From positions 1,685,045 to 1,749,044 of the forward strand of contig JAJEAN010000007.1 in the NCBI GenBank assembly GCA_022822725.1: a stretch of DNA of 64,000 bases, read 5' to 3'. How positions within the stretch are numbered: the first letter of the stretch is position 1; the number at the start of each line of letters is the position of its first letter. Under the pieces are notes generated by a model. It had not been told where the DNA came from and made no database searches. It worked only from the letters and a program-made list of their open reading frames with translations. Shown here in pieces: positions 2,376-10,947 of this stretch. Both the position numbers and the translations under genes were made by a program. Source of the stretch: Candidatus Latescibacterota bacterium. GTDB taxonomy: Bacteria > JAAXHH01.

Positions 2376-3011
2376 TTAATCCAGATCCTGCCAGTCAAAT
2401 TCCTCGCCACAAAGAGGAACAAACCGGAGCACCGTATCTCCGATTGTAATGTGGGTCAAAGCCGCTAGTTCGGTCGGGGTGAGAACGGGTTTGTCATCTA
2501 CATAGGTCAAGTTTGTACCGCCCCCATGCTGAACATAGTACACCCGGCCACGAGGATCGTAGGTAACCGTACTTTGCCCACTTCGAGAAATCCGGTTATC
2601 TCCAAAATCGACTTTTACTCGATCGGTTTCCCCTCTGCCTATGGAATTTGTACCATATCCCAACGGCAGTGCTCTTCCTTTGCCAGGTCCCGATACGATT
2701 ACCAACCATCCCACAACCGGGTCGTCCATTGCATCCACGGTCCCGGCCTGATCCGGCGACTGTTCCTTGCTCCGTCGACGGTGACGGCCTCCAAGAACAC
2801 GTGTCTTTTCATCGTCATCACTTCCAGACGATGAAGGGGTGCCGGTCATCAACCGTGTTGGCGCATCCAGGCGATCAGCATCATCTTGCTGACCGGTTTG
2901 TTTAGGAGTTTCCGGTAATGGGTCGGAGTTGTGCTTCGTAGTCTTCGTGGAAGCATCTTTTTCAGTTTTTTTTTCGATTATCTTTCCATCGGGGCCACGG
3001 TAAACAGGCAT
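2376..3011 (-). CDS. FHA-domain protein (intact copy of a duplicated pair)
   Basis: 211 aa. The N-terminal hundred residues are charged and disordered-looking and contain several Thr/Ser that could be phosphorylated (for example DAPTRLMTG and EKTRVLGG). An FHA fold follows at about 105-200, with GRGETDRVKVDFGDNRISR as the phosphopeptide-binding edge. The usual His after Ser-Arg is replaced (ISRSGQ), so binding may be weakened or atypical. No TM segment. Its start sits next to a remnant of a TolQ-like gene, and its closest relative is the broken FHA copy at 3218-3894. The pair arose by tandem duplication of an FHA plus TolQ-tail block. The role as a phospho-reader for the neighbouring kinase is inferred. 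Confidence 0.85.
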   Translation of the reverse strand: MPVYRGPDGKIIEKKTEKDASTKTTKHNSDPLPETPKQTGQQDDADRLDAPTRLMTGTPSSSGSDDDEKTRVLGGRHRRRSKEQSPDQAGTVDAMDDPVVGWLVIVSGPGKGRALPLGYGTNSIGRGETDRVKVDFGDNRISRSGQSTVTYDPRGRVYYVQHGGGTNLTYVDDKPVLTPTELAALTHITIGDTVLRFVPLCGEEFDWQDLD

Positions 3012-3905: not shown

Positions 3906-4685
3906 CTATTTTTCATATAGGCGGTTAATCAGGTTATCCAGGCAGTATTGGCCCGCCCTATTTAACGCCATCTCTTCTCGCCCCTGCACAATGTGTAGTA
4001 CGAACACAAGTATAGCAGATTGAACTAGCGCAAGTAGGGTAGTATAAAATGCAACCCCTAGACGCCCCGCTATTGATGCTAAAAGCCTCGGATCCTGGGG
4101 ATTCTCTATACTCGCAGCATAATCCAATGATATGGCGATACCAACGATGGTTCCGATAAAGCCAATGGTCGGAATCAGCCATACAAGGTACCGAATCATC
4201 GTGTATTTAAGATCGAGTTCGTGTTGGATCAGTTCGAGGGATGAATTCAATATTGAATTGGTCTGACTGACAGATTTGCTTCCCTGAAACTGTAAGATAC
4301 AGCGTCCAATCAGTCGTTGAACAAAAAAGTCACGCCCCCCTTCGCTCTGTTGCGTTTTTCGATATAGAGGGCCCAGATCCTGTACGCGCAACATTACAGT
4401 ATCGTCTTCGGGCAGCAAATGTTTGGTAGTTTGTACTGACTCAAGTTTGGATTGGTTGTATCTGGTCCAGAGTTCTCCGCACCCCACAGAAAACAGTAGC
4501 CACATGAAGTTTTGAATGGTGACGGGATAGGGAAAGGTAGTAGTATGTCGGTCGAGTAAAAATGCCCCCAGTTCTGAATCAGGAGAACCAAGAACCAGAC
4601 TGAGCAGCGTGACAATTAACATACCGGCCAACAAGCTGACACCCAGTACGATCAGCCTGGTCCTGGTATAAGTGTCCTGATTCAT
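3906..4685 (-). CDS. MotA/TolQ/ExbB-family proton-channel-like protein
   Basis: 259 aa with four predicted TM helices: about 11-33, 52-75, 164-187 and 205-230. The third and fourth carry the family hallmarks: IPTIGFIGTIVGIAISL (the PxxGxxGTxxG-type motif) and GVAFYTTLLALVQSA with the helix-4 threonines. A roughly 90-residue cytoplasmic loop lies between TM2 and TM3, as in MotA/TolQ. Such proteins form pentamers around a dimeric TM partner and conduct ions. The obvious partner here is the single-TM VWA protein two genes upstream in the operon. There is no flagellar, Tol-Pal or TonB context. The family call is good; the ion-driven stator role is inferred. Confidence 0.85.
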   Translation of the reverse strand: MNQDTYTRTRLIVLGVSLLAGMLIVTLLSLVLGSPDSELGAFLLDRHTTTFPYPVTIQNFMWLLFSVGCGELWTRYNQSKLESVQTTKHLLPEDDTVMLRVQDLGPLYRKTQQSEGGRDFFVQRLIGRCILQFQGSKSVSQTNSILNSSLELIQHELDLKYTMIRYLVWLIPTIGFIGTIVGIAISLDYAASIENPQDPRLLASIAGRLGVAFYTTLLALVQSAILVFVLHIVQGREEMALNRAGQYCLDNLINRLYEK

Positions 4686-4773
4686 GATCGGTCTTTCTGT
4701 CTGTATCTACTTCGTATCCACTACGGTCCGTGCCAATGGTCTCCGCCAATTTGGATCCTGTTGAAAATAAACA

Positions 4774-5169
4774 CTAGCTATCTCTAATCACCTCACCCGT
4801 TTCCGGGTTTCGACGTACGGGACCCAAGGGAAGTTTGTTCTCATTAGGGCTGCTACGTTTTGCACCATCTGTCCACTTCTCAGTAACTTGCTTTATACCC
4901 TTCAGGATCTTTGCAACGGTGGTCTGATGCCGACCCAATAGTATAGAATCGGACGAATACACAATGTCTTGCGTGATACGCTGCCAGTTACCGCTGCGAG
5001 CGACATATGTTCCGCCGCTACTTGCCCGATCGGTTAGGAACAGATCGCCACCTTTTGTCACGACGAGTTCTGCGTGGATGCGGGATACGCTAGAGTCACC
5101 TATACGTAGGTGCACATCCGACCCACGTCCGATCAAGTAAACTGAAAACCTTTTGGATTTCGATTTCAT
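4774..5169 (-). CDS. Compact FHA-domain protein
   Basis: About 131 aa from the ATG at 5169; an alternative ATG at 5208 would overlap the VWA gene by 35 bp. A near-minimal canonical FHA domain occupies most of it: YLIGRGSDVHLRIGD, SSVSRIHAEL (the Arg, Ser and His used for phospho-Thr recognition are intact), LTDRASSGGTYV. A basic, Pro-rich tail follows, ending in NPETGEVIRDS. The preferred start begins only 5 nt after the VWA stop, which fits translational coupling. Placed between the VWA and TolQ-like genes, it is the best candidate to bridge phosphorylation to that membrane pair. Confidence 0.88.
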   Translation of the reverse strand: MKSKSKRFSVYLIGRGSDVHLRIGDSSVSRIHAELVVTKGGDLFLTDRASSGGTYVARSGNWQRITQDIVYSSDSILLGRHQTTVAKILKGIKQVTEKWTDGAKRSSPNENKLPLGPVRRNPETGEVIRDS

Positions 5170-5173
5170 ATTC

Positions 5174-6010
5174 TCAACCTGGTTTGGCTCCCACGAGTTC
5201 TCCATCATTCAGTGTCGTCAGCTCAACAAGGAAATCGATAAAATCCCGCTGAGTGACATAATCACCCACCGCCACGGCATGTATTGGGATCCTATTTACG
5301 TTTGACCGAGTTACTTCCCTTACGACACTTCGCCACGGTTCTGAAGGAGCGCCGTCACTGAGTAGAATGATCTCTTCGGGCTTCAGGGCGATGGCCGCCA
5401 GTAGCGCTTCGCGCGTAGGTGTACCACCGTCCACTTGGTTCATCCAGAGACGTATCGTGTTGTATACCTGGTCTCTTGAGCTTCCGACTATCCTGGAATA
5501 ACGCATATTCCCAGGCCAATAGAGTAACTTAGCGGATCCATACGGAGCATGGAATCCGATCATCGCAAGGTCGAGATCCGTACCTAGGGAACCGACCATG
5601 TTTTGAATAGATAGAGTAATAAACTGCCGGTAATCGTTCTCGCCGGGTCTAAATATGCTTCCGGACAAATCCACGACAAAAACGAATCTACTGGCTGTAG
5701 TTTTGATTCCCAGTAACACAGTGGTTTTATCAATCTCGTCTTGTAAAGACCTGATACGTTCTTCGAGTACGGCATCTTTGGAAGCTGTAGGGTCCTGCTT
5801 GAGGTTGGCATTCTCTTTCAATAGTTCCTCGTTCTCCTGTTTGAGCCTTTCGTTCTCAAGAGTTATGATTTCAGTTTCTCGAGCATCGCCCTGATTGGGA
5901 AAAAAAGGAACGAGCACCAGGGTAATCAGTATGAATACACCCATTGCCGAAGCAAATAGATCCAGGGCTGACATACTGAATATGTTGATTTCCTGACCGC
6001 GTCTTTTCAT
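5174..6010 (-). CDS. TM-coiled-coil-VWA domain protein, putative stator partner
   Basis: 278 aa. A single N-terminal TM (about 15-37) contains an Asp at residue 17 in SALDLFASAMGVFILIT. Its spacing from the downstream Phe recalls the proton-carrying Asp of MotB, ExbD and ZorB. A Glu/Lys/Asn-rich coiled coil (about 45-95) follows, then a VWA domain (about 107-270) with a complete MIDAS: DLSGS, the GGTPT threonine and LLSDGAP. MotB and ZorB carry a peptidoglycan-binding OmpA-like domain at this place, so VWA would be an unusual substitution. The gene is followed by the FHA and MotA/TolQ genes in the same operon. VWA and TM are clear; stator pairing is inferred. Confidence 0.9.
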   Translation of the reverse strand: MKRRGQEINIFSMSALDLFASAMGVFILITLVLVPFFPNQGDARETEIITLENERLKQENEELLKENANLKQDPTASKDAVLEERIRSLQDEIDKTTVLLGIKTTASRFVFVVDLSGSIFRPGENDYRQFITLSIQNMVGSLGTDLDLAMIGFHAPYGSAKLLYWPGNMRYSRIVGSSRDQVYNTIRLWMNQVDGGTPTREALLAAIALKPEEIILLSDGAPSEPWRSVVREVTRSNVNRIPIHAVAVGDYVTQRDFIDFLVELTTLNDGELVGAKPG

Positions 6011-6107: not shown

Positions 6108-7439
6108 CTAATCCTCTTTCGATATGTGTAATTCTAGTTTGCCAAACCGCATCAGGGAACCGTAAGGGAGCGGAATCGGTTTGAATGGAGTAAGCCTGGT
6201 ATTCTGAACGAAAGTACCATTCAATGAGTTTAAATCTTCGATACATAATTGACCTTTGCGGCTGGATATCCTGGCGTGTCGACGCGATACACTTTGATCT
6301 GATATGGTTTCGTCTACCAGTTCAGGTATCCGACCAAAGGAGATTCCAAGTGTTTGGTCAGCAAAACGGGTTCTTGGGATTACGATCCGGATCCGGTTTC
6401 CGTCAGCGTTGAAACCCGCAAGTACCAGACCCGAGTCAGGCAGTTGAGTTTGGGAAGACACGGCCTCTGAGAGGTTTTTTGCACCCGCGTTATTCGAAAC
6501 ACTATCTCGTTGTGATTCGCTTTCTGTCGTGGAAGCAGGTTTTGCTTTGAGTTTCTTCCTCGCAAGAATAAAAACAGCTAAACAAAGTCCACCTAGAACC
6601 AATCCCCATACCAATAAATAGCCATACTTTCCTTCTGCTTGTGTCTGCGCACGTTGGGTCTGTGTACTACTCAATCCACTCCCTGGATTAGCCACGCTCG
6701 CAATCTCAGGAGAGCACGGCTCAGTAAGAAACTCGTAAGGGATGGAGACCTCTTCTAAGAATCTCGACAATTCATCCACGTGCGAAGACCAATAGATTCC
6801 CGCGGTATGTGGGATTCTCTCGAAACCTGCGTTTGGGCTGTCGACCAAGACCAGTGATGCCTGGGTATTGACACCAACGATCTGACCACAGTCATCAAGT
6901 AATGGACCTCCGCTATTACCCGGATTCATCGGTGCGTTGTGCTGAACTATTGTAAGTTGCTCAGTAAACTGTCGACCGTCCCAAGTTCCCCTGAATGTAC
7001 GCCCGATCACACCGTCCTGAACCGTTGGATCGTCGGCAATATGCTCTCTGTCTGCTCCTCCGGGGTATCCAATTGCCCAGATTTTCTGACCCTTTTGTAG
7101 CTCTACGAGAGACAGCGTCAAAGGTGACAAGTTAAGCGTTGAAGCATGAAGTACTGCTAGATCGAGTTCTTCTGATATGGCGATTACCTTTCCTTCGTGG
7201 GGAACAGTTGAATTCATGGGTAGTATCACGATCCGACTGCTACTACTGACAACATGAGCGTTTGTAATAACGTGCCCACTCTTGTTAACCGAAAATCCAG
7301 TTCCGGTGTTAAGTCCAAGAGGAGTCTGCGTTACTATACGTACGATGCTTTTTTCTATTTCTTTGAAGTTTGGCGAAGCTACCGAGTCAAAATGATATAC
7401 GAGAACTATCAGACCCAGTGCGAACTGACGTAAGGACAT
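6108..7439 (-). CDS. Trypsin-like (HtrA-type) protease with TM and cytoplasmic FHA domain
   Basis: 443 aa. A signal peptide (about 1-22) is followed by a periplasmic trypsin-like domain with an intact triad: His62 in TNAHVV, Asp93 in LDLAVL and Ser176 in NPGNSGGPL. A TM helix (YLLVWGLVLGGLCLAVFIL, about 272-291) and a linker come next, then a C-terminal FHA domain (about 345-438) with DQSVSRRHARI and EDLNSLNGTFV intact. There is no PDZ domain, unlike DegP. The topology puts the protease outside and the phospho-reader inside, so the protein could couple cytoplasmic phosphorylation to periplasmic proteolysis in either direction. Its neighbour is a catalytically broken paralogue with the same layout. 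Confidence 0.92.
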   Translation of the reverse strand: MSLRQFALGLIVLVYHFDSVASPNFKEIEKSIVRIVTQTPLGLNTGTGFSVNKSGHVITNAHVVSSSSRIVILPMNSTVPHEGKVIAISEELDLAVLHASTLNLSPLTLSLVELQKGQKIWAIGYPGGADREHIADDPTVQDGVIGRTFRGTWDGRQFTEQLTIVQHNAPMNPGNSGGPLLDDCGQIVGVNTQASLVLVDSPNAGFERIPHTAGIYWSSHVDELSRFLEEVSIPYEFLTEPCSPEIASVANPGSGLSSTQTQRAQTQAEGKYGYLLVWGLVLGGLCLAVFILARKKLKAKPASTTESESQRDSVSNNAGAKNLSEAVSSQTQLPDSGLVLAGFNADGNRIRIVIPRTRFADQTLGISFGRIPELVDETISDQSVSRRHARISSRKGQLCIEDLNSLNGTFVQNTRLTPFKPIPLPYGSLMRFGKLELHISKED

Positions 7440-7523: not shown

Positions 7524-9068
7524 CTATGACACCCATATTAGGCGTACCGTAAACGCTACGGGTCCAATTTCGAGTCTATCATCGTCATTTATTTCTAAAG
7601 GATTGCCCGGAGAGAGAGGTTGGTCATTTACTTTTGTCCCGTTCAACGTGTCCAGATCTTCCACATATAGGCGTCCTGAGTCCTGAGTTAGTCTGACATG
7701 CTCTCGGGAAACTTCCTGGTGGTCAATTAGGTACTCCGCATCGGCCGGACTCCTGCCCAAAACCACCCCTGAAGCATAACCAAGTGCCAACTCCGAGATG
7801 TTGACGACATGAGTCCGCCCTGAGTTATCTGTTCCATCCAGTACGCACTTAAACGGAGCAGGTACTGGTGCCTTGTCGGCGGCTTGTCTTGCAGCTTCTG
7901 CTTCCCGTTCAGCCGAGTGTGCACGAGTGGAAGCTTTGGAAACTTGGGCCTTTTTCTTTCTCGCATATAAAAACCACCCAATAAGCAACACAACCAACAT
8001 TCCAATTGCTGCATATTTGATTTCTTGAATCCGCGATGAAAACTGTGTTGATTCGGCCTTCAAACTGTCTTGCAGAGCGGTCTGCACCGAGTCAGCGAAT
8101 GACTCCATCCGGACCAGGCTGTCCTTCGTCGCGTCTTGAAGTGAATCTGTCTGGGCTTGATGGAGAGAATCAGAGATCGCCTTTTCCTGCTCAGATACTA
8201 ACAATGCAGCTCTTGCAGCTTCTGTTTCTTCTTGACTAGATCTTGCGGCTTCTTCAGCAGTCAACCTCGCCGTTCTTTCACGGTTCAGGCTATCCTGGGT
8301 CGCCTGCTCTAACGCTCTTAGTCGTTCTTCGACATTCGCTCTTTCTAGTTCGGCTCGTTCAATAGCGCTTGGACATTCCTCATCAACTATTGTGAAGGAG
8401 ATATTCAAAGCCGTGAGGGTAGTTACTATCTCCTTATTCATTAACGCGGAAACAGATCCTGTTGGATTGACCAAGTTTTGAAACGGCCAGGTTTCATTGG
8501 TTGGATCTGGAACATTCATTCCAATGACATCGCCACATTCATTAAACAGAGGCATACCGAAACCGGCTGAGGGAATGAGGGCGTTATGTTGGAATAAACT
8601 TAGAGTAGTTTCGGCTTCTTGTATGACAGGAATACTTTGGTAAGCTCCAATGGAGCCTACAATAACCTGAACATCAGTATCGCCAAAAACCTGCAGTGTC
8701 TCGACACCACGGCCGACTTCGATACCCTGTTCAGAGAGGTATAAAGGTGGTAGTCCCAGGCCTGTCACTCGGAGAAGGGCCAGGTTCCGATCACTTCGCA
8801 GTTCATCATGCAGCCGTGCTACGTATTCGGCACCGGATTTTAACGATAGTACAGTTATACTCTCAGCATCAACGAGAAGATGAGCATTCGTCACGATATA
8901 ACCGTCGCTAACCACAAAACCACTGCCCTCAGCTACTATTCTGTTATCCACATAGGACCGAACTTTGACTAAGCTTGAAGTGACGGAATCAACGTCAATT
9001 CTGCCCGAGACAGGATATGTAAAAAAAGTTGTGACGATGATCGAAAGAACCAAACTGCGAAACAACAT
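7524..9068 (-). CDS. Trypsin-fold pseudoprotease with coiled coil, TM and FHA domain
   Basis: 514 aa, the first gene of the signalling operon. A signal peptide (about 1-22) is followed by a trypsin fold that keeps His62 (TNAHLL). The serine is lost: against HNAPMNPGNSGGPLLDDCG of its neighbour it reads HNALIPSAGFGMPLFNECG, so Ser becomes Phe170. The Asp position is Asn95, though Asp93 lies two residues away. A long coiled coil (about 225-350) with repeated DSL heptads, a TM (YAAIGMLVVLLIGWFLYA) and a canonical FHA domain (EVSREHVRL, EDLDTLNGTKV) complete it. It is probably a binding-only sensor or regulator paired with the active protease gene downstream. Confidence 0.88.
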   Translation of the reverse strand: MLFRSLVLSIIVTTFFTYPVSGRIDVDSVTSSLVKVRSYVDNRIVAEGSGFVVSDGYIVTNAHLLVDAESITVLSLKSGAEYVARLHDELRSDRNLALLRVTGLGLPPLYLSEQGIEVGRGVETLQVFGDTDVQVIVGSIGAYQSIPVIQEAETTLSLFQHNALIPSAGFGMPLFNECGDVIGMNVPDPTNETWPFQNLVNPTGSVSALMNKEIVTTLTALNISFTIVDEECPSAIERAELERANVEERLRALEQATQDSLNRERTARLTAEEAARSSQEETEAARAALLVSEQEKAISDSLHQAQTDSLQDATKDSLVRMESFADSVQTALQDSLKAESTQFSSRIQEIKYAAIGMLVVLLIGWFLYARKKKAQVSKASTRAHSAEREAEAARQAADKAPVPAPFKCVLDGTDNSGRTHVVNISELALGYASGVVLGRSPADAEYLIDHQEVSREHVRLTQDSGRLYVEDLDTLNGTKVNDQPLSPGNPLEINDDDRLEIGPVAFTVRLIWVS

Positions 9069-9945: not shown

Positions 9946-10019
9946 CGGAGGATATTGTTGCGCACTTAACGATTCCAGGTCACTTGATTAAACCCAGACT
10001 ACGACCGCCCCGGACCACG

Positions 10020-10223
10020 GCCATGGCCAACTTACTGTGAGATCTTTGGGCGTATGGCGAACCTGACAGGGCGTCAGCTCTGGCCATTCCGGTAGTCAAG
10101 TTACATCTGTACGGGAAACAGGAAGCCCGCGCAGGGAGGATGATGGGACATTTGACGGCAATGGTGGATACGCGGGAGCAAGCGGTGGAAAGGGTGGTGG
10201 AGGCGAGGCGGGGGTTGGGGTGA
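10020..10223 (+). pseudogene. purK: purK 3'-end remnant with in-frame stop
   Basis: The plus strand reads AMANLL-stop-DLW, then VVKLHLYGKQEARAGR and MMGHLTAMVDT ending at TGA 10221-10223. This is the recognisable C-terminus of N5-carboxyaminoimidazole ribonucleotide synthase (family pattern NLLGDLW ... KLHLYGK ... R-x-MGHLT). TGA at 10038-10040 replaces the conserved glycine codon GGA. Upstream residues (RPPRTT) still look weakly PurK-like and then fade. No ATP-grasp domain or purE is nearby. It is a decayed fragment marking an old rearrangement at the border of the low-GC block. Confidence 0.75.
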
Positions 10224-10248
10224 TGGTCGTTATTGGAGAGCGATTACG

Positions 10249-10947
10249 ATGTCCAACAGATGCTTTGAAAACGTAACTGAAAAACTTAGAGAACTGAAGA
10301 ACGACGATAAAGTAATGCTCGACTTAGCTCAAAAAGCGTTTCGGGCGTATAACGGAGCAATCTATCCATTTGATTTACTTATCAATGCCGCGATAAACCG
10401 AAATCTAGCTCTATCGGAAGGGTTCAGGACAATGATCAATGACAGAAACATGATCTGCGCCGGTTCACTTCTCCGCATGAATTTAGATTCGGCACTTCGC
10501 GTCTATGCAGGATTCAGGGTTGGCGACCCGCATGAACTTGCTATTTCCGTAATGCAAGGTAAACAAATCCGTAAGGTGAAAGATAGAAGCGGAAACCCTA
10601 TGACCGACCACTACCTTATTTCTAAACTGTCACGTAATCACCCTTGGATAGAATCGGTATACAAAAAAACCTCCGGATACGTACACTTATCTGAAATCCA
10701 TGTTTTTAGTTCTTTAGATCCAAACATAGATCCAAAAACCGGTGAGTTTGGTGTTAAAATCGGACCACGCGATAATGATATTCCCGAAGAGATCTACCTT
10801 GAAGCAATCCTCGCATTTCACGAGTCATCGGGGATTCTAGCGAAATACGTAAGCGGATGGGTGTTTACAAAGAACAATCCGGATAAAGTAGCTGAAATAA
10901 GAAAGCACCTCGAAAATCAAGGGATTGACCCGATTCTGGACATTTAA
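10249..10947 (+). CDS. Hypothetical protein, unrecognised family
   Basis: 232 aa, low-GC, probably mainly helical, no signal or TM. A conserved-looking core reads NRNLALSEGFRTMI then CAGSLLRMNLDSALRVYAGF, with a later segment SGYVHLSEIHVF. His and Asp/Glu residues are scattered without a catalytic pattern I can name. The type is common in accessory or defence-like regions, but I do not recognise a family. It starts 25 bp after the purK remnant and runs toward a convergent phosphotransferase gene. Confidence 0.7.
   Translation: MSNRCFENVTEKLRELKNDDKVMLDLAQKAFRAYNGAIYPFDLLINAAINRNLALSEGFRTMINDRNMICAGSLLRMNLDSALRVYAGFRVGDPHELAISVMQGKQIRKVKDRSGNPMTDHYLISKLSRNHPWIESVYKKTSGYVHLSEIHVFSSLDPNIDPKTGEFGVKIGPRDNDIPEEIYLEAILAFHESSGILAKYVSGWVFTKNNPDKVAEIRKHLENQGIDPILDI

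Follow-up and report, generated by a model that had tools for sequence, protein, structure and literature searches.

The window analyzed here, a 64,000-nucleotide stretch of contig JAJEAN010000007.1 from a Candidatus Latescibacterota bacterium, opens with a cluster of minus-strand genes that combines a MotA/TolQ-family channel with a Ser/Thr phospho-signaling apparatus and a pair of HtrA/trypsin-like proteins. The products encoded by this cluster are as follows: a Ser/Thr kinase with one transmembrane (TM) helix (1–1083, continuing past the window; 525 aa, L008:14551-16128), a PP2C-type phosphatase also with one TM helix (1178–2227), a second FHA protein with a conserved N-terminus (MPVYRGPDGKIIE; 2376–3011), a MotA/TolQ/ExbB-like channel (3906–4685), a small FHA protein (4774–5208), a protein uniting a TM helix, a coiled coil and a VWA domain, which we consider the putative axle of a motor (5174–6010), an HtrA/trypsin-like protease with an intact His/Asp/Ser triad (6108–7439), and a pseudoprotease of the same family, in which the catalytic Ser is replaced by Phe and the Asp by Asn (7524–9068). 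The last two each bear a TM helix and a cytoplasmic FHA domain. The segment 3020–3905, also on the minus strand, is a decayed tandem duplication comprising an FHA pseudogene, a fragment of the kinase tail and the end of the channel gene (its last ~48 residues), and points to recombination within the cluster. Hydropathy and charge fit a topology in which the kinase, PP2C and FHA domains would lie in the cytoplasm and the trypsin and VWA domains outside. An earlier, sequence-only reading of positions 3906–6010 had correctly recognized the channel and VWA genes and their ends, and the pair is real; it overlooked the small FHA gene, which lies between the two and overlaps the end of the axle gene by 35 bp, and it passed over the genes by which the system is defined, those for the kinase, the phosphatase, the FHA proteins and the proteases.

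Most of this set recurs in a map of 24 loci, which features the small FHA protein, the channel, the second FHA protein, PP2C, one or more kinases, the Asp-bearing TM protein (Asp-TM protein hereafter) and often the HtrA-like FHA-proteases. The small FHA gene adjoins the channel gene in 21 of the 24 loci; a kinase was detected in 21 of them and a PP2C in 20, counts that include several contigs ending early. Of the 22 loci whose contig permits seeing the Asp-TM gene, 21 have it, the exception being L069, wherein a truncated channel gene and the missing Asp-TM gene go together while the kinases and FHA-proteases remain (L069:8652-9363). The HtrA-like proteases are often paired, one member retaining His, Asp and Ser, and its partner having the catalytic Ser substituted by Phe or Tyr every time. 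Among loci the kinases vary in their C-terminal regions, as variable sensors would be expected to: some are FGE-like, and others resemble, by eye, ankyrin, PDZ, beta-helix or peptidoglycan-binding domains. The window has a single vWA gene; pairs of vWA genes are seen in L034, L035, L068, L073 and L074. A minimal version at L076:7831-10350 consists of the channel, a small TM protein and an Asp-TM protein whose head is not a VWA domain, and has no match to a kinase, FHA or PP2C domain; neither were such signaling genes seen in the gammaproteobacterial relatives of the system. Hence, the signaling part is dispensable for the motor in general. The cluster contains no gene for an ExbD, TolR or MotB protein, and the three ExbD genes detected in the window's genome all lie away from it; two of these are neighbors, at a distance of about 58 kb from the start of the window (G000:C9:1626490-1627437).

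The channel identified by the earlier reading from its GTIVG motif (residues 178–182) is recovered by the Pfam MotA_ExbB model (E=2e-10). Its P172, T179 and T216 are unchanged in all 23 proteins of an alignment that includes gammaproteobacterial members at 20–25% identity. In a profile alignment with the solved PomA stator, these residues fall on P151, T158 and T186 of PomA, as counted by hand off the printed alignment, the two threonines being those of the PomA ion path. A search of the PDB with the 23-row profile retrieved PomA, MotA and TolQ at E-values of about 0.01–0.6, and a six-row profile yielded no matches. The tail beyond the last TM helix is about 26 residues long, and its final 15 (GQYCLDNLINRLYEK) are near-identical throughout the kinase-linked group, a conservation that would fit a candidate docking site.

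The C-terminal domain of the axle protein matches the Pfam VWA_3 model (E=3e-6) and has a complete MIDAS (D114-L-S116-G-S118, T197 and D219), in line with the architecture that had been read from the letters of the window. An AlphaFold monomer models the VWA domain with a mean pLDDT of 81.8 and the TM helix (14–36) at low confidence, and Foldseek with this model returns VWA domains; one structure prediction was run on the alignment rows less one from a plasmid record. Asp17 sits near the start of the sole TM helix, in its first or second turn. The sequence-only reading had proposed aligning homologues for invariance of this residue and had named its variation as grounds for refutation; the reading survives, as the residue is an Asp in all 24 aligned homologues, which come from several phyla, span close copies through distant alphaproteobacterial versions and include five without a C-terminal VWA domain. 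Invariance in this helix extends to A22, G24, F26 and L33, and the mean majority frequency is 0.75 for the TM block versus 0.48 for the C-terminal domain. Profile–profile alignment places Asp17 on the Asp of gammaproteobacterial TolQ-linked vWA proteins (probability 99.6%, E=1e-24). Given its invariance and this match, the residue goes beyond a chance occurrence. The TM segments of ZorB are only weakly similar (E about 0.001), and the TM block by itself, searched as a profile against the PDB, retrieved no MotB or ExbD, with only chance matches to odorant receptors.

The head carried by this TM stem is exchangeable. In five of the 24 axle homologues the stem bears, in place of the VWA domain, a beta-rich domain marked by a W...DxDL motif, for which we obtained no convincing Pfam match and, with a mediocre model, no significant Foldseek match. 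The MIDAS is mostly retained in the 19 VWA versions, with residue 116 being Ser in 14 and Thr in five, and one copy (L074) is degenerate. Separately, at L065:5754-6560 the VWA gene is broken by a stop and its MIDAS segment is absent. As an unrelated beta-rich domain occurs on the same stem and the TM block is better conserved, the Asp-bearing stem is the constant part, and the VWA domain is not what defines the system; the adhesion-type effector that the earlier reading saw in it is at most putative.

Motors combining TolQ with vWA proteins that bear a transpore helix were proposed in 2025 from synteny and AF3 models, with a 5:2 model of the TolQ-linked vWA proteins placing the Asp in the Thr ring (PMC12204202). 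The clusters described here resemble them in having the Asp-bearing TM helix on a vWA protein and an adjacent TolQ-like gene with no TolR or ExbD. Profiles show the window's axle to be homologous to tandem vWA proteins matching the published description, a correspondence made by description only. From this homology to TolQ-linked vWA proteins, the motor core belongs to a kind already known from computational proposals. It differs in that the vWA genes of those motors tend, though not as a strict rule, to occur in heterologous pairs (PMC12204202), whereas such a pair is absent from the window and the present clusters usually have one vWA gene or a non-vWA head. Beyond this, the cluster brings genes for phospho-signaling (kinase, PP2C and FHA) and for the FHA-proteases; searched by word, that paper proved not to mention kinases. 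Our literature searches, mostly outside subscription papers, returned no description of a kinase-linked, head-swapping version, and both the phospho-signaling package and the head swapping appear new to the literature.

Other known systems share parts of this design. The MotAB/PomAB and TolQR/ExbBD stators have the aligned Pro/Thr/Thr set in the channel but a head other than the VWA or unnamed beta domain. As in ZorAB of Zorya, a MotA-like channel is joined to an Asp-TM partner; unlike in Zorya, the head is a VWA domain instead of the peptidoglycan-binding domain of ZorB, the channel lacks the long cytoplasmic tail of ZorA, and PADLOC found no ZorC, ZorD or ZorE among the cluster proteins. Membership in Zorya is ruled out by the missing peptidoglycan-binding domain, channel tail and effector genes, and the earlier label of a Zorya-like architecture holds for the motor core alone, there being no OmpA-like domain. 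The gene set of the TerY-P triad, namely VWA, PP2C and kinase, offers a further likeness by gene set alone, and here the VWA domain rides on a TM axle beside a channel. A parallel to the signaling part is the threonine-phosphorylation pathway of type VI secretion, in which PpkA, PppA and Fha (kinase, PP2C and FHA) gate an envelope machine (PMC6082577, PMC3953482). There too a membrane kinase, a PP2C phosphatase and an FHA reader are coded in one locus, but the regulated machine would here be a motor. A role as a type VI secretion regulator in this genome was ruled out by the lack of a type VI sheath gene (no VipB in the genome).

Taken together, we lean toward the proposal that the cluster specifies a phosphorylation-controlled, proton-motive-force-driven 5:2 rotary motor of the inner membrane with an exchangeable periplasmic head. 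By homology, the ring would consist of five MotA-like subunits, with two copies of the TM-coiled-coil-VWA protein dimerizing as its axle. Ions would pass from the T179/T216 ring to Asp17 of each axle helix, and their flow would turn the axle together with its head in the periplasm. The kinase is predicted to mark Thr residues on motor-associated proteins, the PP2C enzyme to reset them and the FHA proteins to read the phospho-Thr marks; this set most likely gates the motor in the manner of PpkA, PppA and Fha in type VI secretion. The FHA proteins may also recruit both FHA-tethered periplasmic proteases, the active one and its dead twin, to the active motor, and the type of head, VWA or other beta domain, would determine what is pulled or engaged. 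The ion-driven stator suggested by the earlier reading gains support from the invariance of Asp17 (24/24, across two unrelated head types) and of the channel P172/T179/T216 (23/23), the latter aligned with PomA, as judged from these alignments. The motor is further favored by the axle's homology to the TolQ-linked vWA proteins modeled as 5:2, by the recurrence of the FHA, kinase, PP2C and Asp-TM genes around the channel, because the cluster has no ExbD, TolR or MotB and because L069 has lost the intact channel and the Asp-TM gene together; it is weakened by the failure of the TM block to find MotB or ExbD in the PDB and by the absence of signaling genes from L076 and the gammaproteobacterial relatives.

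The genomic setting bears on what such a machine might be used for. Among 12 genomes of the genus searched, the channel occurs in the window's own genome only, with a concordant result for the VWA protein. Homology to seven relatives, all of which lack the cluster, breaks off where purK ends (3′). A second, decayed copy of this 3′ end, a 219-bp imperfect repeat on the plus strand (10007–10225; 79% identity), marks the right edge of the inserted segment, and past it synteny with the relatives resumes; the matching purK 3′ end lies at about 2142–2360 of L095. Therefore, the cluster together with an M48 peptidase constitutes a ~12-kb island in a variable slot, which holds different genes in the relatives, including an EVE/restriction-like gene in one. 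No integrase was recognized for this island. Just past the repeat, an ORF for a 232-aa protein (10249–10947) has no Pfam or PADLOC match and resembles, by eye, a weakly DUF5677-like gene beside the L035 cluster. The cluster seems to be horizontally mobile: another copy is on a conjugative Rhizobium plasmid beside Gabija, and the L007 copy adjoins Cas6-PrimPol-Cas1-Cas2 with an array. On an Anabaena plasmid, a type III-B CRISPR (Cmr) operon is directly followed by a MotA/TolQ-family gene and then by an unannotated one; a viperin-family gene is in the vicinity (L011:9779-11645). A phage origin was rejected: there was no match in phage records and, among six proteins, PHROG matches were limited to the kinase and PP2C.

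These neighborhoods raise the alternative of a Zorya-style immunity, in which phage perturbation of the envelope turns the motor on and the protease/FHA arm serves as the effector. It draws on the likeness in kind of the motor core to ZorAB, the placement of the island in a variable slot, the Gabija and Cas neighbors, and the restriction-like gene that one relative has in this slot. Against it, the cluster codes for no nuclease, has the above lack of matches in phage records, and is flanked by housekeeping genes in many other copies, compared with three defense-like contexts in a raw tally. Owing to these housekeeping neighbors a defense role is a lead, not a finding, and we hold this form of immunity to be unlikely.

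Less probable still is that the system is a gated ion leak and not a motor, with the phospho-circuit opening the channel and depolarizing the membrane in an abortive response. The same channel and Asp residues would serve conduction, the kinase/PP2C control is in place, and defense-like neighbors occur in the same three places; however, the conserved architecture of a long coiled coil and a folded periplasmic head on the Asp helix would then be superfluous. We consider it highly improbable that the Asp-TM protein lies outside the pore as a signaling or adhesion scaffold with the channel as an independent partner: the TM block's failure to retrieve MotB or ExbD from the PDB and its weak similarity to ZorB would agree with this, but Asp17 stays invariant while the head is swapped, the cluster has no other ExbD-type partner, and the axle is homologous to vWA proteins modeled in the pore.

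Returning to the phosphorylation-controlled rotary motor, a broader extrapolation is that these clusters form a class of mobile envelope machines, each a 5:2 motor driven by the proton-motive force, with its own Ser/Thr phospho-switch, exchangeable heads and exchangeable kinase sensors, that might be used against phages or neighboring cells; we offer it tentatively, as rather unlikely. If true, a stator of the MotA/TolQ/Zorya type would come with a dedicated kinase, phosphatase and set of FHA readers, making phospho-gating directly testable, and the mounting of different head types on a common axle would reveal the Asp helix and its ring to be a general-purpose engine.
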